A stretch of DNA of 64,000 bases from an uncultured Monoglobus sp. (GTDB lineage: Bacteria > Bacillota > Clostridia > Monoglobales > Monoglobaceae). How positions within the stretch are numbered: the stretch's first letter is position 1; the number at the start of each line of letters is the position of its first letter. The position numbers were made by a program, and so were the translations under genes. Below the pieces are notes generated by a model, which did not search any database, was not told the DNA's origin, and saw only the letters and a program-made list of their open reading frames with translations. The stretch is taken from assembly GCA_947630505.1 (NCBI GenBank), contig CANRHV010000001.1:62001-126000 (forward strand), given 5' to 3'. Of this stretch, positions 27,640-42,112 are shown piece after piece.

Positions 27640-29187
27640 ATACATAAGACAGTTAAAATGGGCAGCCTGTTTTCAGGCATAGGCGGATTTGAGGTTGCCG
27701 CTCAGTGGCACGGCGCAGAAGTTGTGTGGCAGTCTGAGATTGAGCCGTGGGCGGTGGAGCTGCTTAAACAGCATTTTCCAAACGCCAAACAACTTGGCGA
27801 TATTAATGATATAAAAGGCTCGGAAATTGAGCCTGTGGATTTGATTACATTTGGTTCGCCATGCGTAGGGCTGTCCGTTGCAGGAAAACGAAAAGGACTG
27901 GCTGATGAACGCTCAGGTTTGTTTACTGAAGCAATAAGAGTAATTAAAGAAATGAGGAAATCAACAAATGGAGAATACCCAAAATACATTTTATGGGAAA
28001 ACGTGCCGGGAGCACTCACAAGCAATAAGGGGTGTGACTTTAGAACCGTGCTTGAAGAAATCGCAGAAACCGAAATTCCAATGCCTAAGTCTGGAAAATG
28101 GGCAAGCGGCGGAATGGTGCGAGGGGGGGAGTGTGACATTGCATGGCGTGTCTTGGACGCCCAATATTGGGGAGTGCCCCAACGCAGAAAGAGAATCTTC
28201 CTTGTGGGAGATTATAGATCTGAACGCTCCGCAGAAATATTATTTAAGCCCGAGGGCGTGTCAGGGTATACTTCGCCGAGCGGAGAGGCGCGGAAAAGAA
28301 TTGCCGCCGATCTTGAAAAATGCCTTAGTGAGACAGGCGGAGCTGACGGCGTAGATTACAAACCGTGCTATGGGTTTAGATGGACAGCGGGTTCAAAAGC
28401 CGGAAATATAGGTTGGAGCGAAAACGTTTCACCAACATTAACAAGCGACGGAAAACCACAAGCAATATGTATGCCGTCTGTAATGGTTCAGGCATATAGA
28501 ATATGTTCATGCGCAAGTAATTCGATGAAGTCAGCGAACCCACACTCAGGAATATACAAAACTAACAAAGCCTCAACAATAGATACATCGGGCGGAAATC
28601 CCGCATGTAATCAAGGTGGTTTATTGATTTGTATGCCATGTGTGTATGACGCAAGAGGAAATGGCAATGGAGCAACTTCTCCCACATTGGTTGGAGATCA
28701 CGAAAGCCGAGTAACAGATTATACATCGCTATTGCTTTCGCCAATCTATTCAATAGACCGAGCGGCGTTTAATCAAGGTAAGAACGCACAATACAATTTC
28801 AGCATACGAGATGACGGGCTCATGCAGACGATTGTAGCAAGAGGTCCCAATGCGGTAGCGATTCCCGATTTGGCATGTTTTCAAGGACAGGCATCTCCAA
28901 GTGCAGAAATAAGTTATTCAAATAAAACCAGTTCAACCATTCAATGTACTAAACAAGCAGATGTTCTGCACCTTAAAGAGAACTTGACTTACATAGTGCG
29001 TCGCTTAACACCCGGAGAGTGTGCACAGTTACAAGGTTTTCCACCCGATTGGCACGAGATTACGAATGAACAAGGAAAACCAATGCCCGACACAGCGGCA
29101 TATAAAGGTTACGGAAACGCGGTTGCGACGGTTTGCGCAGAATATCCGATAACGGGCATTATAGAGGCACTTCAAGAAGAAATTTAA
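27640..29187 (+). CDS. DNA cytosine-5 methyltransferase 1
   Basis: 515 aa if started at the ATA at 27640 (AGGTG 7 nt upstream). The first ATG, at 27658, is 25 nt from that SD. C5-MTase motifs: GSLFSGIGGFE (I), FGSPCVGLSVAGKRKGL (IV, catalytic PC), WENVPGAL (VI), YWGVPQRRKRIFLVG (VIII) and a C-terminal RRLTPGECAQLQGFP / GNAVATVCA (IX-X). Long target-recognition region of about 230 aa. Carries a G7 run at 28123-28129. No cognate restriction enzyme nearby. Probable DNA protection or anti-restriction role. Confidence 0.9.
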   Translation: MHKTVKMGSLFSGIGGFEVAAQWHGAEVVWQSEIEPWAVELLKQHFPNAKQLGDINDIKGSEIEPVDLITFGSPCVGLSVAGKRKGLADERSGLFTEAIRVIKEMRKSTNGEYPKYILWENVPGALTSNKGCDFRTVLEEIAETEIPMPKSGKWASGGMVRGGECDIAWRVLDAQYWGVPQRRKRIFLVGDYRSERSAEILFKPEGVSGYTSPSGEARKRIAADLEKCLSETGGADGVDYKPCYGFRWTAGSKAGNIGWSENVSPTLTSDGKPQAICMPSVMVQAYRICSCASNSMKSANPHSGIYKTNKASTIDTSGGNPACNQGGLLICMPCVYDARGNGNGATSPTLVGDHESRVTDYTSLLLSPIYSIDRAAFNQGKNAQYNFSIRDDGLMQTIVARGPNAVAIPDLACFQGQASPSAEISYSNKTSSTIQCTKQADVLHLKENLTYIVRRLTPGECAQLQGFPPDWHEITNEQGKPMPDTAAYKGYGNAVATVCAEYPITGIIEALQEEI

Positions 29188-29544: not shown

Positions 29545-29814
29545 TTGACAAAAAGTAATACATATATTAAAAGCCCGCTTAATTATGTTGGCGGTAAGTT
29601 TAAATTGTTGCCCTCAATCATTCCTTTGATACCCACAGACCTCAATGTATTTTACGATTTGTTTGGCGGTGGTTTTAATGTGGGAATCAATGTTGAGGCA
29701 GAACGGATTGTGTACAATGACATAAACGAACCTGTAAGCCGTATGTTAAAGGCAAAGGATAAAAGCGATGACGTTGAAGTTTTGATTACAAATTACTCAA
29801 CTCCCGGAGAATAA
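29545..29814 (+). pseudogene. Dam-type methyltransferase, N-terminal fragment
   Basis: 89 aa from a TTG. SPLNYVGGKFKLLPSIIPLIP and DLFGGGFNVGIN match the SAM-binding N-terminus of Dam/DpnM-type N6-adenine methyltransferases. The frame stops after 89 aa, far short of about 270, and no DPPY motif follows. The end (GGAGAATAAATATAGTAG) is almost identical to the end of the second dam-like gene (33173-33190), suggesting deletion of the middle by recombination. Probably inactive. Confidence 0.75.
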
Positions 29815-30011: not shown

Positions 30012-31529
30012 TTGACAAATACACCAAAAGAAAAATTGACAGCTAATATCCTATTCTCAGGCATAGGGGCGCAAGAAAGAGGTTTTAGAAACTCAGGATT
30101 ATTTGATATTGATATTGTAACAACATCAGAGATTAATAAGGAAGCGGTTGTTGCATACGCTGCAATACATTGTGGTCTAACCCCAGAGATGGTTGAAAAC
30201 TATCCTGATTATCCAACAAGAACAGAGATGGCAGAGCATTTAAGAAAAATTAATTTGGGTTACAATCCCGAGAAAGGCAAAGCGTTTGATTGGTTTAAAT
30301 TAACTAAACGAAAATCAAAGGATTTGGAAAAGTATTGGCTTGCTTGTAATCTTGTCCATAATGGGGGGGATATATGTAATATTAAATCTTTGCCATACGC
30401 TGATTTGTGGACGTGTAGTTTTCCCTGTACAGATATAAGTATTGCCGGCTCAATGAAAGGATTAAACCCGGACAGCGGAACCAGAAGCAGTCTATTGTGG
30501 GAAAATATAAGGTTGCTGAAACAAGCGAAAGATAACAACACATCACCTAAATACATTATGTTTGAAAATGTAAAAAATCTTGTCAGTAAAAAGTTTTTGC
30601 AATCGTTTAACGACTTAATTAATATTTTGGATGAACTTGGATTTAATACATATTGGTCTGTTTTAAACGGAAAAACTTGCGGTATACCGCAGAACAGAGA
30701 GCGAGTGTTTGCCGTAGCTGTTCGCAAGGATATTGATACGGGTAAAATGGATTTTCCTAAACCGTTTGATAACGGATTGCGTTTAAAAGATATGCTACAA
30801 GATACAGTAGATGATAAGTATTATTTATCTGAAGAAAAAGTGCAGAGGTTCCTTATTAAGGATAAAACAGCTTTATTATATGACCCCACATGGTTGAAAA
30901 CAAGAGGTGAAGCCAGAGGCTGTAATGAGTTTTGTCCAACCTTAATGGCAAGAGATTATAAAGACCCTAAATTAATAAACGAAAATTCTGTTCATCAAGT
31001 GGGAAACCTTATACATAAATCTAACGGTTGGGACAATCCCCAAACAGGAAGAGTTTATTCAACGCACGGCTGTTCCCCAACGCTGAATACTTGTGGTGGC
31101 GGACAGCGTGAACCTAAAATTATTGAGAGAAAAAATAAAATTGCAATACGAAAGCTAACTCCAACCGAGTGTTTTCGTTTAATGGGGTTCAATGATGCTG
31201 ATTGTAAAGCGGTAAAAAATATGGGAATAAGTGACTCACAATTATATAAACAAACAGGCAACTCAATTATAACAAATTGTGTTTCGCTGATAGCTGAACA
31301 CTTATATAAAGCGCAATATAACAACGAATATATATGTTTGGACGAGTGTGTTGAGACGCAACCACAAACGACAATAAACAAGCCAAAGTTAATTGGTGGG
31401 ATTGGTGAACCAAATTGGGCTGGTTCATATCGTCAGGGCAACAGAGTTTATGACTCGAAAAATATTGCAGTTTGTCTCACAACAACCCCGGTAGGTTCAG
31501 CGGGGGCAAAGCGTGTTGTGCTCGGTTGA
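30012..31529 (+). CDS. DNA cytosine-5 methyltransferase 2
   Basis: 505 aa from a TTG. SD support is weak, and a second in-frame TTG lies at 30036. Motifs: ILFSGIGAQERGF (I), CSFPCTDISIAG (IV, PC), MFENVKNL (VI), TCGIPQNRERVFAVAV (VIII) and RKLTPTECFRLMGF / QTGNSIITN (IX-X). A tail of about 50 aa after motif X (GGIGEPNWAGSYRQGNRVYD) looks like a target-recognition segment of a different C5 methyltransferase. Contains a G7 run at 30363-30369. DNA modification. Confidence 0.88.
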   Translation: MTNTPKEKLTANILFSGIGAQERGFRNSGLFDIDIVTTSEINKEAVVAYAAIHCGLTPEMVENYPDYPTRTEMAEHLRKINLGYNPEKGKAFDWFKLTKRKSKDLEKYWLACNLVHNGGDICNIKSLPYADLWTCSFPCTDISIAGSMKGLNPDSGTRSSLLWENIRLLKQAKDNNTSPKYIMFENVKNLVSKKFLQSFNDLINILDELGFNTYWSVLNGKTCGIPQNRERVFAVAVRKDIDTGKMDFPKPFDNGLRLKDMLQDTVDDKYYLSEEKVQRFLIKDKTALLYDPTWLKTRGEARGCNEFCPTLMARDYKDPKLINENSVHQVGNLIHKSNGWDNPQTGRVYSTHGCSPTLNTCGGGQREPKIIERKNKIAIRKLTPTECFRLMGFNDADCKAVKNMGISDSQLYKQTGNSIITNCVSLIAEHLYKAQYNNEYICLDECVETQPQTTINKPKLIGGIGEPNWAGSYRQGNRVYDSKNIAVCLTTTPVGSAGAKRVVLG

Positions 31530-31643: not shown

Positions 31644-32426
31644 ATGATAGAAAAGGTAAACCCGAGCCACGTTGATAAAATCGCAGATCGCATCGCAGGA
31701 GCAATAGTTGATTTGGCATATCAAACCAAAGAAGACCCAAAGATAGCGGTTGAGGTTTTAATAGGTCACGGCACTTGTCACGTTATTATTGAAACAGATA
31801 CCCAGCTTGACCGAGTTAAAATAGCACGGATAATCACAAGAATAGGCGGACGGGTGTTTACGGATATAGCAATCTATCCACAGGACAAACACTTAGCCGA
31901 TAATCAATCTGAAGGTTTTAGGTGCGGGGACAATGGTGTGTTTAAGGGTGTGCCCGTCACAGATGAACAAAGAAAATTGTCTCAAATCGCAAGGGATATA
32001 TACAAGAAATACCCCTATGATGGCAAATATATTCTTGACGGAGACAGGCTTGTTATTTGTCAAAGCAATGCCAAAACAGAAGATTTGCAAGAACTTTACC
32101 CAGACGCCATAATTAACCCGCTCGGATATTGGATTGGCGGCAGTGACGTAGACACGGGAGCAACAAATCGCAAACTCGGCTCTGATATGGCTGATAGTGT
32201 TACAGGCGGTGGACTATTCGGCAAGGATTGTTCCAAAGCAGACGTCAGCGTTAATATATACGCTTTCTTAAAAGCTCAGAAAACAGGCAAACCCGTAGAG
32301 TTAAGTTGTGCCATCGGTGATGACACAGTTGACGGAAAGCCATATTCCGAGATCGTTGCGATAGCCAAGAAATACATAGACTCCGTGGGCGGATTTGAAA
32401 AGTTTGCCGAGTGGGGATTGGTATAG
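31644..32426 (+). CDS. metK: compact S-adenosylmethionine synthetase
   Basis: 260 aa (host MetK is about 390) from an ATG after GAGGTG. Clear MetK signatures in order: SHVDKIADRIAGAIVD (for GHPDKIADQISDA), GDNGVFKGVP, NPLGYWIGG, DTGATNRK (for DxGLTGRK) and GGGLFGKDCSKADVS (for GGGAFSGKDPSKVDRS). The missing length is mostly in the centre and C-terminus. It makes SAM from methionine and ATP. Placed among four methyltransferase genes, it probably supplies their methyl donor or replaces a limiting host pool. Confidence 0.88.
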   Translation: MIEKVNPSHVDKIADRIAGAIVDLAYQTKEDPKIAVEVLIGHGTCHVIIETDTQLDRVKIARIITRIGGRVFTDIAIYPQDKHLADNQSEGFRCGDNGVFKGVPVTDEQRKLSQIARDIYKKYPYDGKYILDGDRLVICQSNAKTEDLQELYPDAIINPLGYWIGGSDVDTGATNRKLGSDMADSVTGGGLFGKDCSKADVSVNIYAFLKAQKTGKPVELSCAIGDDTVDGKPYSEIVAIAKKYIDSVGGFEKFAEWGLV

Positions 32427-32433
32427 TAGCATA

Positions 32434-33187
32434 ATGAAATATGTTGGAAGTAAGAACAGACTGGCAAAATTCATAGCTCCGATAATGCAACAAACGATTG
32501 ATGACAACGATATTCGAGAATGTTATGAACCGTTTGTGGGCGGGTGTAACATGATTGACAAAATCAAGTGTGACAGAAAACTTGCAAGCGATAACAATAA
32601 ATACTTGATTGCGTTTTGGCAGAAGATAGCGGACGGTTGGGATATTTCACAAGAACCTATGTCTAAAGAGTTGTATGCCGACATTAGAGCTAATCCCAAT
32701 GATTATCCGCCCGAACAGGTAGCATTGGCAGGTTTCTGTGCCTCGTATAACGCCAAATGGTTTGGCGGATATGCAGGAATTGTTACCACAAAAACAGGAG
32801 TTAAACGAAATTATTACGATGAAGCTGTTAGAAATGTTATGAAACAGGCACCATTAATTAAGGATATAGAATTTTCACACAGAGATTATCTTGATATTAT
32901 CCCCCCCCCACAACGCCGTGGTATACTGCGATCCGCCGTATAGGGGTACAACCAAGTACGGTGATAAAAACTTTGATTATGAGAAGTATTATTCGTGGGT
33001 GAGAGAAATTTCCAAAAACAATATTGTATTTTGCAGCGAATATTCTATGCCTGATGACTTTATCTGTATTTGGCATAAAAATACAACAGTAACGCTTGAC
33101 AAAAGCCAAAAGATAAAATCATGTGAGAAGTTGTTTATACATAACAAAAATCAAACAAAATTTAATTTTTGCGGAGAACAAATATAG
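32434..33187 (+). pseudogene. Dam-type N6-adenine methyltransferase split by a C9 tract
   Basis: Frame 1 (32434-32943) has MKYVGSKNRLAKFIAPIM and YEPFVGGCNM, the SAM-binding start of a Dam-family enzyme. At the C9 run 32891-32899 the frame breaks. The continuation (VVYCDPPYRGTTKYGD, DPPY catalytic motif) is in the next frame and ends at 33187. With C8, one base fewer, the two parts fuse into a full protein of about 250 aa. Either a phase-variable gene in the OFF state, a true pseudogene or a homopolymer read error. Confidence 0.85.
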
Positions 33188-33508: not shown

Positions 33509-34150
33509 ATGACAACAGAAACAATGAACATTCACAAGGCGCTGGCGGAGCTTAAATCTCTGGACAAGCGTATACCCAATTTAATCAGAGAGTGCGATTA
33601 CTGCGTGACAAACAAAGTAACAAACGAGAAGATCAATGGTTATACCATAGACGAGGTTAGGGATCTAATCAAGAGCGATTATCAGAAAATCATTGATCTG
33701 ATGAAGCGCAGAGACGCTATCAAACGAGCGGTCGTAGCCTCAAACGCGGAAACGGAAGTAACCATCGCGGGAGTTAAATATACCGTGGCGGTTGCCATTG
33801 AAATGAAGAACCACGGCATGGACTATAAGAAACTCCTGCTCCAGTGTATGACAAGCGACCATGTAGATTGCAGTAAGTCGTTAGCGGCAAACAACGGCGA
33901 GAGACTTGAAAAGGCTGCGGATGACTATGTTGCAAATTTCTACGGTTCAAAAGAAAAAGCCGCCAAAACAGAAGAAGCTATGGCAATGCGAGAGCAGTAC
34001 ATAAGGCAGCGTAAGTATGAATTGATTGACCCTCTGAACGTGATTACCAAGATCGCCGAGCTGTCAGACGAGATCGAGAAGTTCATGTCCGAGGTTGACG
34101 GAGCGCTCTCAACGAGCAATGCCAACACGACAATAGAAATAACATATTAA
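33509..34150 (+). CDS. hypothetical coiled-coil phage protein
   Basis: 213 aa with predicted coiled coils at about 5-75 and 150-205 and a beta hairpin (AETEVTIAGVKYTVAVA) in the middle. GGAG lies upstream. A recurring phage protein type of unknown function. It is the last gene before the large structured RNA. Confidence 0.65.
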   Translation: MTTETMNIHKALAELKSLDKRIPNLIRECDYCVTNKVTNEKINGYTIDEVRDLIKSDYQKIIDLMKRRDAIKRAVVASNAETEVTIAGVKYTVAVAIEMKNHGMDYKKLLLQCMTSDHVDCSKSLAANNGERLEKAADDYVANFYGSKEKAAKTEEAMAMREQYIRQRKYELIDPLNVITKIAELSDEIEKFMSEVDGALSTSNANTTIEITY

Positions 34151-34163
34151 GCACAACGATAAC

Positions 34164-34574
34164 GTAGTTGCATACCGAAAACCCTAAAGGTTGGTTGCCC
34201 GATTTTTGTTAGAGTTTTGCGGGTTAATAAATTTAAAACTCTACAAATATTTTGCCCTCATTTGAAATGACGGCAGCGATGATAAGTAAAGTGGCGTAAT
34301 GGATAGCGCGAACACCCGTTAAGTGTTTATTATAGGTTCAAATCCTATCTTTACATAATAAAACAGCATACTCACTGTGACCCGCAGTGCAGAGAGATGG
34401 GTTATAAAGAGTAAAATTTAAACTCAAAAACTCAAACAGCAATATTCAAACATTAAACTGTATATCTCTTAAAATTCGTGCATTAAACCTGAACGCTTTA
34501 CAAAATCCTTGGTCAAATGTTAGCAGCGCAATCAACGTAGCTTTGGGTGAGCATCAAGGCAGGTATGTAACTAC
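34164..34574 (+). ncRNA. large structured RNA, ROOL/GOLLD-like
   Basis: A gene-free 411-nt stretch closed by nested long-range helices: P1 34164-34176 with 34562-34574 (13 bp, one G-U), P2 34181-34189 with 34541-34548 (8 bp, one bulge), P3 34190-34197 with 34529-34536 (8 bp, one G-U) and P4 34259-34265 with 34513-34519 (7 bp). Inside are a 9-bp hairpin (34210-34218/34235-34243) and a tRNA-like fold (34285-34356). Size, phage setting and the embedded tRNA-like unit fit ROOL or GOLLD RNAs, but I cannot run a covariance search. The strand is assumed from neighbours. Confidence 0.65.
34285..34356 (+). tRNA. tRNA-like fold, anticodon GTT (Asn-like)
   Basis: Cloverleaf of 72 nt: acceptor AGTAAAG/CTTTACA with a first-pair A-A mismatch, D-stem GCGT/GCGC, anticodon stem AACAC/GTGTT with loop CCGTTAA, T-stem ATAGG/CCTAT with loop TTCAAAT. 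Position 33 is C instead of the universal U, and CCA is not encoded. These defects and its place inside the structured RNA suggest a tRNA mimic or a decayed tRNA. Confidence 0.45.
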
Positions 34575-34667: not shown

Positions 34668-34805
34668 GTGTATGATGTTTTGAATATATGCCGTTATGTG
34701 ATTATATATAGCAATAAACGCAGCTACGGCGTGTCCAATTTGAAACTTCAAAAACTGTTGTACCTCATACAGGCGATTGTCTTATGCCGACAGGGATTAT
34801 TTTAG
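34668..34805 (+). pseudogene. truncated Panacea/DUF4065 (SocA-like) gene
   Basis: 45 codons from a GTG after GGAGG: YDVLNICRYVIIYSN ... NLKLQKLLYLIQAIVLC matches the start of DUF4065/Panacea-domain proteins (about 150-190 aa, antitoxins of various toxin-antitoxin pairs). A stop cuts it after the first helices and no toxin partner is adjacent. Probably a remnant. Confidence 0.7.
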
Positions 34806-34826
34806 CGAGAGGTGTGAACATAACCA

Positions 34827-39477: not shown

Positions 39478-41379
39478 ATGTATCATAAGACAACGTATGA
39501 CACAAATTTTGATGACTTGTATATGCACCTGCGGAGCAAATATCCCGATAAACTCTTTGATTTAGAGGGGATAGGAAAGCAAACAGATATGGGCAAATTC
39601 AGTAAGGCATTTTTCAGTTCAACCACTACGGCGGATACGTCCGTGGACGCTAACAGCAATGTAGACGATCATACCGTAGTCGCATACGAGAACGAGCTAC
39701 CCAAGCCTTATATGCGTCTTAATTCTCTTTATTTAATATGGAAAGACGGCAGACATTTGTTTTCGCGAGCATGGGCTGACGAGATGGTTGAGGCTGAGTT
39801 GTCGGGTGCTATTTACATAAATGATTTGTCAAATGTTCAAAAACCATATTGCTACAATTTCAGTACATACGACGTTATGGCTAAAGGCTTGCCGTTTGTC
39901 AATAAGGTAAACTCCCTGCCTGCCAAGCACTTGAACAGTTTTTGCGGACAAATGGTTCATTTCACCTCGTATGCAAGCAACCAAATCATGGGAGCCGTAG
40001 GTCTTGCTGATTTGCTGATAGTTATGAGCTATTACGTTAAAAAAGAATTTGACGAGAATCCCGACGTACCCAAAGATTATATATGGAGAAACGTCAAACA
40101 GGAAATGCAATCGCTTATATATTCTATGAACCAACCTTTCAGAGGAGGACTGCAATCAGGTTTCTATAATGTATCAATATTTGACAGTGAGTTTCTTGAC
40201 ACAATGCTCCCCGATTATATATTCCCCGACGGCAGCAACCCCGACAAACAACTGGTTCAAAAGCTTCAGGAAATGTTTATTGGCCTGATGAACGAGACTC
40301 TTGAAACCTCGCCTGTCACATTTCCCGTAACAACAGCCACATTCTGCGTAGACGAAGAACGCAACGTCAAAGACAAAGGTTTCCTTGAATTTATTTCAAA
40401 GAAAAATCAGAAATGGGGCTTTATGAACATATACGGCGGAGAAAGTTCAACGCTCAGCTCGTGCTGTCGTCTGCGTTCCGATAAAAACAACAGATATTTG
40501 GGATATGTTAATTCATTTGGTAGCGGTGGTACGCAAATAGGCTCGTTCGGCGTGGTAACGCTCAACCTTCCTCATATTGCACTTATATCCAAAGACGAGA
40601 AAGAATTTGAGGACAACCTTCTTCACTATGCGGATATGGCTATCAAAATAAACCATGTCAAGAGATACTTACTTAAAAAGCGCATATCTATTCACGGACT
40701 TCCCCTCTACGACCACGGATTTATGGATTTGCAAAAACAGTACGCAACCATAGGCTTGTGCGGCGTTTACGAGTGCTTACAAGTTATGGGTTATGATATT
40801 AAATCAGCCGAGGGTCAACAGTTCTGCTATAAGATATTCTCTATGCTTAACGATATAAACGACAAGGCTGATAACAAATACGAGTACGCTCACAATCTTG
40901 AGCAGACGCCCTCCGAGAACTCAGCTATTAAAATGGCGGCAAAGGACAAGCTTCTCGGACTGCAAGATGAATATGAGCTGTATTCCAATCAATTTATCCC
41001 TCTGCAAGTTACGGCTAATATGCTTGAGAGAATTGATTTGCAGGGTAAGTTTGATAGTCAGTTCTCAGGCGGCAGCATCCTACACTTAAACGTAGATGAC
41101 AGAATAGAAGATTATCACGACAGTATGAATCTGACCGAGGCCGCAATTAAGGCGGGCTGTGTGTACTTCGCAGTGAACTATAATATTCAGCGATGCGAGA
41201 ATGGGCACATGTCCGTCGGCAAGAATGAAAATTGTCCTATTTGCGGTAAGCCTATAACGAACAACTTTATTAGAGTGGTAGGATTTTTGGTTGACGTCAA
41301 AAACTTCCATAAGGTAAGGCGCGAACACGATTATCCCAACAGGCAGTTCTATCATTCAATTAAAAACCCGTCACTATGA
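39478..41379 (+). CDS. nrdD: anaerobic ribonucleoside-triphosphate reductase
   Basis: 633 aa glycyl-radical enzyme. The C-terminal zinc site is CENGHMSVGKNENCPICGKP, followed by FIRVVGFLVD, where the radical Gly is expected. The body contains GGESSTLSSCCRLRSD, with the active-site Cys region. Converts NTPs to dNTPs without oxygen; requires activation by NrdG, the next gene. No ATP-cone domain is visible at the N-terminus, so allosteric control may be reduced. Confidence 0.9.
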   Translation: MYHKTTYDTNFDDLYMHLRSKYPDKLFDLEGIGKQTDMGKFSKAFFSSTTTADTSVDANSNVDDHTVVAYENELPKPYMRLNSLYLIWKDGRHLFSRAWADEMVEAELSGAIYINDLSNVQKPYCYNFSTYDVMAKGLPFVNKVNSLPAKHLNSFCGQMVHFTSYASNQIMGAVGLADLLIVMSYYVKKEFDENPDVPKDYIWRNVKQEMQSLIYSMNQPFRGGLQSGFYNVSIFDSEFLDTMLPDYIFPDGSNPDKQLVQKLQEMFIGLMNETLETSPVTFPVTTATFCVDEERNVKDKGFLEFISKKNQKWGFMNIYGGESSTLSSCCRLRSDKNNRYLGYVNSFGSGGTQIGSFGVVTLNLPHIALISKDEKEFEDNLLHYADMAIKINHVKRYLLKKRISIHGLPLYDHGFMDLQKQYATIGLCGVYECLQVMGYDIKSAEGQQFCYKIFSMLNDINDKADNKYEYAHNLEQTPSENSAIKMAAKDKLLGLQDEYELYSNQFIPLQVTANMLERIDLQGKFDSQFSGGSILHLNVDDRIEDYHDSMNLTEAAIKAGCVYFAVNYNIQRCENGHMSVGKNENCPICGKPITNNFIRVVGFLVDVKNFHKVRREHDYPNRQFYHSIKNPSL

Positions 41380-41395
41380 CACAAGGAGAACATCA

Positions 41396-42112
41396 ATGAA
41401 TTTATTGGGAACACAATATACACTCAAAAACAAAGCGTATGAAATTTACTTAGCAGGTTGTGGCAGACCCTCGCATTGCGAGGGCTGTCATAATCCCGAA
41501 TCGTGGGATTTTAACGCAGGAACAAAGATAACGAACAACACCATTGAGAACATTTCCGCAGAGATAAACAGCCATGCCGATTTGGTTGAAAATATCTGGA
41601 TTTTAGGCGGCGAACCTCTCGATCAGCCGTTAGACAGTTTTCTGTATTTTATGGTGAATTTGCTGACAGATACTAACTGTAAGATTTGGTTGTTTACGGG
41701 CTATGATTTAGATACGGCAGTCTCTAAACTGTTAGAGAGAAATTCGATAGGTATGTGTCGTCTGCTTTGTGTTGACTACTTGAAATACGGTGCATATAAA
41801 CCTGAACTTACTGTCAATAACCACATTGAGCATGGCATACAACTCGCAAGTAGCAACCAACATATCATGACACTTGTGGAAATAGAAGAATATATTGAGA
41901 ACAAATTAAATCCGCACACGCAAATTAAACTAAACAGCAACAAAGAACTCGTGAGCCAAATACAGGAAAAGCTCAAACAAAACGGCGGCTATTGCCCATG
42001 CGTCCCCAAATACCTATGGAACGCCGACACCAAATGTCCCTGCAAAGAGTTCAGAGAAATGGAAGAAGGCGAGTGCAACTGCGGATTATATATCAAGACA
42101 CCGAAAGGGTGA
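41396..42112 (+). CDS. nrdG: NrdG activase fused to FTR-like catalytic domain
   Basis: 238 aa. Residues 1-160 are a radical-SAM NrdG (AGCGRPSHCEGCHNPESWDF, then IWILGGEPLDQ). Its cluster motif is CX5CX2C instead of CX3CX2C. The C-terminal about 80 aa (IKLNSNKELVSQIQ ... GGYCPCVPKYL ... KCPCKEFR ... ECNCGLYIK) match the ferredoxin-thioredoxin reductase catalytic fold, with CPC, CPC and CxC motifs for a 4Fe-4S cluster plus disulfide. The fusion could deliver electrons for radical formation or link activation to redox state. Confidence 0.85.
   Translation: MNLLGTQYTLKNKAYEIYLAGCGRPSHCEGCHNPESWDFNAGTKITNNTIENISAEINSHADLVENIWILGGEPLDQPLDSFLYFMVNLLTDTNCKIWLFTGYDLDTAVSKLLERNSIGMCRLLCVDYLKYGAYKPELTVNNHIEHGIQLASSNQHIMTLVEIEEYIENKLNPHTQIKLNSNKELVSQIQEKLKQNGGYCPCVPKYLWNADTKCPCKEFREMEEGECNCGLYIKTPKG

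Follow-up and report, generated by a model that had tools for sequence, protein, structure and literature searches.

A predicted class of pseudoknotted phage RNA adjoining a phrog_1491 gene, with a variable slot for tRNAs and anticodon arms

In the bacterial Y RNA YrlA, the two ends pair to form a long stem, and the RNA also carries a tRNA-like module. The tRNA-like domain of YrlA has been proposed as an anticodon-nuclease competitor (PMC7790460). ROOL and GOLLD are large pseudoknotted RNAs of phages and prophages that lie near tRNA islands and are known to form RNA-only cages. GOLLD linkers sometimes hold tRNAs (PMC12286853). Here we describe a structured phage RNA at positions 34164–34574 of a 64 000-nucleotide (nt) stretch of DNA from an uncultured Monoglobus sp. 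(contig CANRHV010000001.1, positions 62 001–126 000; hereafter the window), which lies directly 3' of a gene of the phage protein family phrog_1491. All features of the RNA and this partner gene are on the + strand. Judged from its homologues, the RNA almost certainly represents a new class of phage RNA of about 240–450 nt, and we rate the class as categorically new, though GOLLD/ROOL-like in genomic setting and style. An original prediction made from the window sequence had proposed an unannotated phage RNA and perhaps a new class, which covariation and homologues strongly support; it overlooked the heptad repeats and pseudoknots as well as the partner gene, and recognised neither that the tRNA is exchangeable nor how widely the RNA is distributed.

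The whole structured RNA was delimited by the boundaries of its closing helix P1 and by homologous RNAs at the matching place. P1 pairs GTAGTTGCATACC (34164–34176) with GGTATGTAACTAC (34562–34574) over 13 bp including one G-U pair and is the longest helix of the stretch, exactly as the original prediction had it. None of 2000 shuffles of the 3' flank gave a pairing as good, and mismatched P1 partners paired as well as the window P1 in 1.1% of cases (n = 983). Covariation was evaluated in 81 sequences with an effective number of 64. P1 was 96.0% paired with 367 double-change cells, against shuffle maxima of 60.0% and 123, and 12 of its pairs covaried. The long-range helices P4 and X were 88.7% and 77.8% paired against shuffle maxima of 64.0% and 60.5%, respectively, and shifting the columns by 1–2 positions abolished the signal of all three helices. 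The z-scores of the top covarying column pairs were up to 24 for P1, 20–22 for P5, 9–14 for P4, 6–12 for P6/P7 and 6–7 for X. In a separate MAFFT alignment (n = 48), P5 was 100% paired and four of its five pairs had changed on both sides; the percentage leans high because the P5 positions were picked by a complementarity rule, a bias that affects neither the double changes nor the slide control. Since the P1 partners were also picked by complementarity, we compared own with mismatched partners, and the median pairing energies were −23.0 and −7.3 kcal/mol, respectively, with own partners beating the best 5% of mismatched ones in 77 of 83 members.

From the 5' end, members of the class are composed of the P1 5' strand, the motif CGAAAAC, the 5' strands of P4 and X, an H-type pseudoknot P2/P3 and a variable slot, followed in the 3' half by A-rich heptads, the motif AAATCC, the hairpin P5-P6-P7, the motif GGCTG and the P1 3' strand. 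The loop of the hairpin bears the X 3' strand and its 3' side bears the P4 3' strand. In the window, the conserved CGAAAAC junction, which adjoins P1 in nearly all members, is at 34176–34182, P4 is formed by 34183–34189 and 34541–34547, and X pairs 34190–34196 with the P7 loop at 34530–34536. The pseudoknot stems are P2 (34197–34201 and 34220–34224) and P3 (34211–34218 and 34235–34242), and their scores exceeded those of dinucleotide shuffles across members (P = 4e-27). P5 pairs CCTTG (34507–34511) with CAAGG (34555–34559), as in the 48-sequence alignment. A helix search within the window itself found long-range helices at 34183–34189/34541–34547 and 34190–34198/34528–34536, both within P1. 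The predicted core shown by these comparisons is double-pseudoknotted.

Four perfectly nested helices had been claimed for this RNA, of which the 8-, 8- and 7-bp ones were assigned here by search and not by the coordinates originally given. P1 and two inner helices are indeed mutually nested and covarying, while the candidate fourth helix (34259–34265/34513–34519) had no support from the homologues. P4 and X, although nested with each other, cross the local 3' hairpin P5-P7, and the fold is therefore pseudoknotted rather than a simple nest. Pairings broken without compensation in homologues had been set beforehand as the refuting outcome; P1 and the two inner helices were instead found to be kept by compensatory changes. 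The claim of a gene-free stretch agreed with our finding of no open reading frame of at least 50 amino acids (aa) between 34150 and 34827. Because the folding energy of the window RNA was modest (RNAfold z = −2.48), the case for it rests on the homologues.

When phages and 197 related genomes were searched by BLAST with the window RNA, only tRNA and chance matches were returned; the RNA family is visible only via its neighbouring gene or its motifs. The 213-aa partner gene (33509–34150; phrog_1491, T5.085-like), directly 5' of the RNA, led to the IMG/VR contigs L002–L004, in which a clearly similar RNA lies directly 3' of the same gene, and the partner-protein alignment led to 80 viral loci and 21 genome loci. 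A tblastn search of the phage collection with the partner protein gave 699–708 records. Carriers of the gene include T5-like Salmonella and Escherichia phages and phages of Vibrio, Pseudomonas, Klebsiella, Erwinia, Lactococcus, Bacillus and Clostridioides, and the RNA motifs were found within a few hundred nt 3' of the gene in all 11 named phages inspected. Independently of the gene, a DNA pattern search of IMG/VR returned 59 stretches, most of which were fortuitous hits within coding sequence. The genuine RNAs, recognised by the CGAAAAC and P1 motifs, all had the partner gene upstream.

We further built a model, R1, from the 3' domain of the RNA, with the window RNA among its sequences. R1 matched 99 of the first 100 loci, which had been chosen by protein alone and 36 of which had supplied the model's own sequences, and every match was 3' of the gene on the same strand. 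The held-out members L049, L066, L128, L148, L157 and L171 matched at E < 2e-7, and chance pattern matches, the PAK_P3 locus and DIP1984 loci gave no score. The window RNA, itself part of the model, scored 63.3 bits. Weak matches were obtained for L173/L174, L202 and L206 (E = 0.02–0.15), and R1 thus misses some branches. In a scan of 245 genomes from the same taxonomic class, R1 matched only the window's own genome, as expected of a phage element. Taken together, the loci collected by protein, by pattern and by model show, at the level of sequence comparison, an RNA class that is tied to one protein gene. In one member (L094 6021–6478, Dulem virus 39, PP511791), the hypothetical proteins XCD07466, XCD07536 and XCD07538 have been annotated across the RNA or its 3' edge, probably in error.

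The same arrangement could reflect a cis-acting structure in the 3' untranslated region (UTR) of the phrog_1491 mRNA that controls this message, given that the RNA lies directly 3' of the gene on the same strand and that the gene–RNA interval in the window contained no promoter or terminator consensus. We consider such a role unlikely: in L128 the RNA lies ∼1.2 kb downstream of the gene, behind other reading frames, and to our knowledge the RNA greatly exceeds known 3' UTR controls in size and complexity. From the missing promoter and terminator consensus we infer that the RNA is probably co-transcribed with the partner gene.

We then compared the class with known RNAs. The Rfam models of ROOL and GOLLD did not match the window at the gathering score or at E ≤ 10, and the homologues matched only tRNA and RAGATH-27 in Rfam. 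Covariance-model search of window and homologues thereby rejects ROOL/GOLLD membership, and the suggestion in the original prediction of a divergent ROOL or GOLLD member did not hold. Such a divergent member would share the phage origin, the tRNA neighbourhood, the ornate pseudoknotted fold and the embedded tRNA; the window class, however, is shorter and has its own conserved motifs, a constant protein-gene partner and 7-nt repeats, so that this assignment is highly improbable. The GOLLD trait of a tRNA in a variable linker near other tRNAs is shared by the window RNA and seven other members, which is a resemblance and not proof of kinship.

RAGATH-27 (RF03100) matched the first 82–88 nt of the RNA, above the gathering threshold in L002, L004, L125 and L149 and below it in L003/L118 and L135. 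By these matches, RAGATH-27 is the 5' fragment of this class, represented in Rfam for the gut branch only. Its model spans 86 positions with a single helix, which corresponds to pseudoknot stem P3, and misses P1, P2, P4, X, P5, the heptads and the slot. The window RNA did not reach the RF03100 threshold of 76.1 bits and was unlisted at E ≤ 10, nor does this model detect T5-like, Vibrio or Serratia members. For T5-like, Vequintavirinae, Vibrio, Serratia and other members, only tRNA exceeded the Rfam thresholds and nothing convincing was found at E ≤ 0.5. The literature searched, which held few subscription papers and preprints, made no mention of RAGATH-27 or T5.085, and an earlier description is possible.

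With YrlA the class shares paired ends and a tRNA-like module. The YrlA model (RF02553) gave only weak chance-level hits on ordinary downstream tRNAs (24.4 bits against a cut-off of 69) and no match in the RNA. Unlike YrlA, the class has phrog_1491 as its constant neighbour instead of Ro60/Rsr, and its pseudoknotted core is far larger. PAK_P3 small RNA sRNA2 (PMC4933390), which has T-loop letters, was considered as a candidate member; PAK_P3 gave no hit for the partner protein and R1 was silent on its first 45 kb (L207), so that kinship is not supported. The long non-coding RNAs of phage K (PMC9241854) were noted as analogous only.

One phage record names the partner protein as similar to T5.085, and the phrog_1491 label 'tail fiber protein' has been propagated to many phage annotations. 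The AlphaFold model of the protein had a confidence score (pLDDT) of 90.8, and in a VIA-align comparison its sole outstanding neighbour was 3kdq, with a Z-score of 11.7 over 152 of 153 residues and the next entry at 6.9. This entry is DIP1984 of Corynebacterium diphtheriae, the sequence of which shares a motif pattern with the partner protein by eye. Foldseek found no match in the PDB at E ≤ 0.001, NF038048 (DIP1984) gave no match at E ≤ 1 and there was no NCBIfam or Pfam DIP1984 match; the modelled protein thus resembles DIP1984 in fold by a gap in structural Z-scores and by motifs read by eye. Two cellular DIP1984 loci had neither a tRNA nor an Rfam RNA in their vicinity, and R1 did not match them. 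The 'tail fiber protein' label is doubtful because the protein always adjoins the RNA in tRNA-rich regions, and both the predicted fold and this context argue against it.

A candidate site of contact between the two partners is the heptad region, at 34402–34505 in the window, where the A-rich repeats (NNTNAAA/G) are imperfect; the period-7 signal was measured over 83 members. In 80 of 83 members, AAA or AAG triplets upstream of AAATCC recur every 7 nt. The lag of 7 was observed 729 times against 96 expected (z = 63), with further peaks at 14, 21 and 28. This register suggests a repeated binding site, either for a protein oligomer or for an RNA strand. The DIP1984-like protein would bind this RNA, with the heptads as a possible site, and an RNA–protein partnership is probable.

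The variable slot of the window RNA contains a tRNA-Asn(GTT) at 34284–34357, detected by ARAGORN and by Rfam RF00005 (53.5 bits) where a tRNA-like core had been predicted. Across the class, the slot holds a whole tRNA, a rearranged tRNA whose acceptor stem is closed, or an anticodon stem-loop alone. Whole tRNAs besides that of the window were found in L049 (Ser), L098 (Ile and Gln), L130 (Gln), L142 (Leu), L168 (Ile), L169 (Tyr) and L184 (Ser). Permuted tRNA parts were found in L125/L059, L177 and L149/L081, and by eye also in Erwinia phage Rebecca (L206), in the order of T-arm, acceptor 3' strand, a short loop (UUCG in L125), acceptor 5' strand and D-arm; for L149 there is an alternative tRNA reading of 35.8 bits. 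As the descriptor scan for permuted tRNAs was noisy, with loose matches in 34 of 83 members against 12 expected, a case was counted only if its T-loop was canonical and a D-arm could be recognised. In one further member (L151), a tRNA acceptor/T-arm minihelix (GCCCCTG..TTGGGTTCGACTCCCAA..CAGGGGC) lies between the gene stop (1127) and P1, and the slot carries a tRNA-Asn-like anticodon arm, as if one tRNA were split around P1.

Intact tRNAs in the window and seven other members would be expected if the RNA were a platform that carries, protects or helps to mature the slot tRNA, and many carriers are tRNA-rich, with genes for the RNA ligase RtcB in 6 of 16 carrier records (Rebecca, LIBA6276, CM1, PMBT69, Dulem virus 39 and G199). 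Most members, however, have no complete slot tRNA, and the permuted tRNAs could not be charged without processing because their acceptor end is closed; we therefore give the platform role little credence.

Anticodon arms stand out in the slots that lack a tRNA, with hairpins of this type in 20 of 71 against 2.6 expected. Twenty of the 26 listed slot loops matched, letter for letter, the anticodon loop of an authentic tRNA bearing that anticodon, and seven relatives with cores 72–90% identical carried the anticodons GCT, GAT, TAA, GCT, GCT, TGA and GTT. We propose that the RNA–protein particle may act like a display stand for the slot tRNA or anticodon mimic, which would be bound in place of a tRNA by a tRNA-recognising enzyme of the host or of a defence system; an anticodon nuclease is the likeliest candidate. 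The nuclease would thereby be titrated or inhibited, and phages would swap the displayed anticodon to fit the nuclease met. The nearest published suggestion of such titration concerns YrlA (PMC7790460). A decoy against tRNA-cutting nucleases is possible rather than probable. The explanation as a whole, comprising a gene-tied RNA, a ribonucleoprotein (RNP), a displayed tRNA or anticodon and a nuclease decoy, is our best one and is held tentatively. Its broadest form is somewhat more doubtful, namely that many large phages share an RNP of heptad RNA and DIP1984-like protein with an exchangeable plug-in anticodon mimic, which together make a programmable anticodon-nuclease inhibitor.

Several points weigh against the decoy. 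Most members have no hairpin that fits the strict anticodon-arm definition and L094 and L194 are nearly slot-less, so that the mimic is not the whole function. The conserved core and the heptads are left unexplained by a decoy, the DIP1984 fold is uninformative as to RNA binding, and RtcB was rejected as an obligate partner, being in only those 6 of 16 records. The tRNA-rich surroundings also make chance capture of tRNA genes easy. The main rival, which we hold about equal to the decoy, is that the core RNP does something else, such as serving as an RNA scaffold or compartment or controlling translation or decay in the host, with the slot being just a permissive peripheral loop in which tRNA genes from the neighbourhood insert and decay. 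Slot content and length vary widely, down to the nearly empty slots just named, and the regions in which the carriers lie are rich in tRNAs. Permuted tRNAs can result when tandem tRNAs are partly deleted, and the permuted pieces could partly be such debris. ROOL and GOLLD likewise occur near tRNA islands, with tRNAs in the GOLLD linker (PMC12286853). A loop that merely collects decaying tRNAs is at odds with anticodon arms that keep 5-bp stems and authentic loops though the D- and T-arms are gone, and with anticodons that differ among close relatives while the cores are alike.

Other genes of the window were also noted. Directly after the RNA, the frame at 34669–34806 has an N-terminus that by eye is like a Panacea/DUF4065 (SocA/GepA-like) antitoxin (VYDVLNICRYVIIYSNKRSYGVSNLKLQKLLYLIQA), followed by a stop, and is probably a truncated gene. 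Two C5 DNA methyltransferase genes (phrog_116) lie close together at 27658–29187 and 30012–31529, and short reading frames at 29545–29814 and 32395–33187, Dam-like by eye, look truncated or frameshifted. A phage-borne anaerobic ribonucleotide reductase pair, NrdD/NrdG, is encoded at 39478–42112.

T5-like phages carry the RNA, and its total range, judged by the partner gene, probably extends to hundreds of sequenced phages; only a fragment of one branch has been catalogued so far, as RAGATH-27. Phage T5 in Escherichia coli K-12 offers an accessible laboratory system for the class, and the hypothetical protein family phrog_1491 gains a likely RNA partner. With this class, the idea of interchangeable phage anticodon decoys against tRNA-cutting defences becomes testable, and the class also bears on the purpose of large phage RNAs near tRNA islands. 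If true, the decoy would represent a general, previously unseen RNA-based counter-defence.
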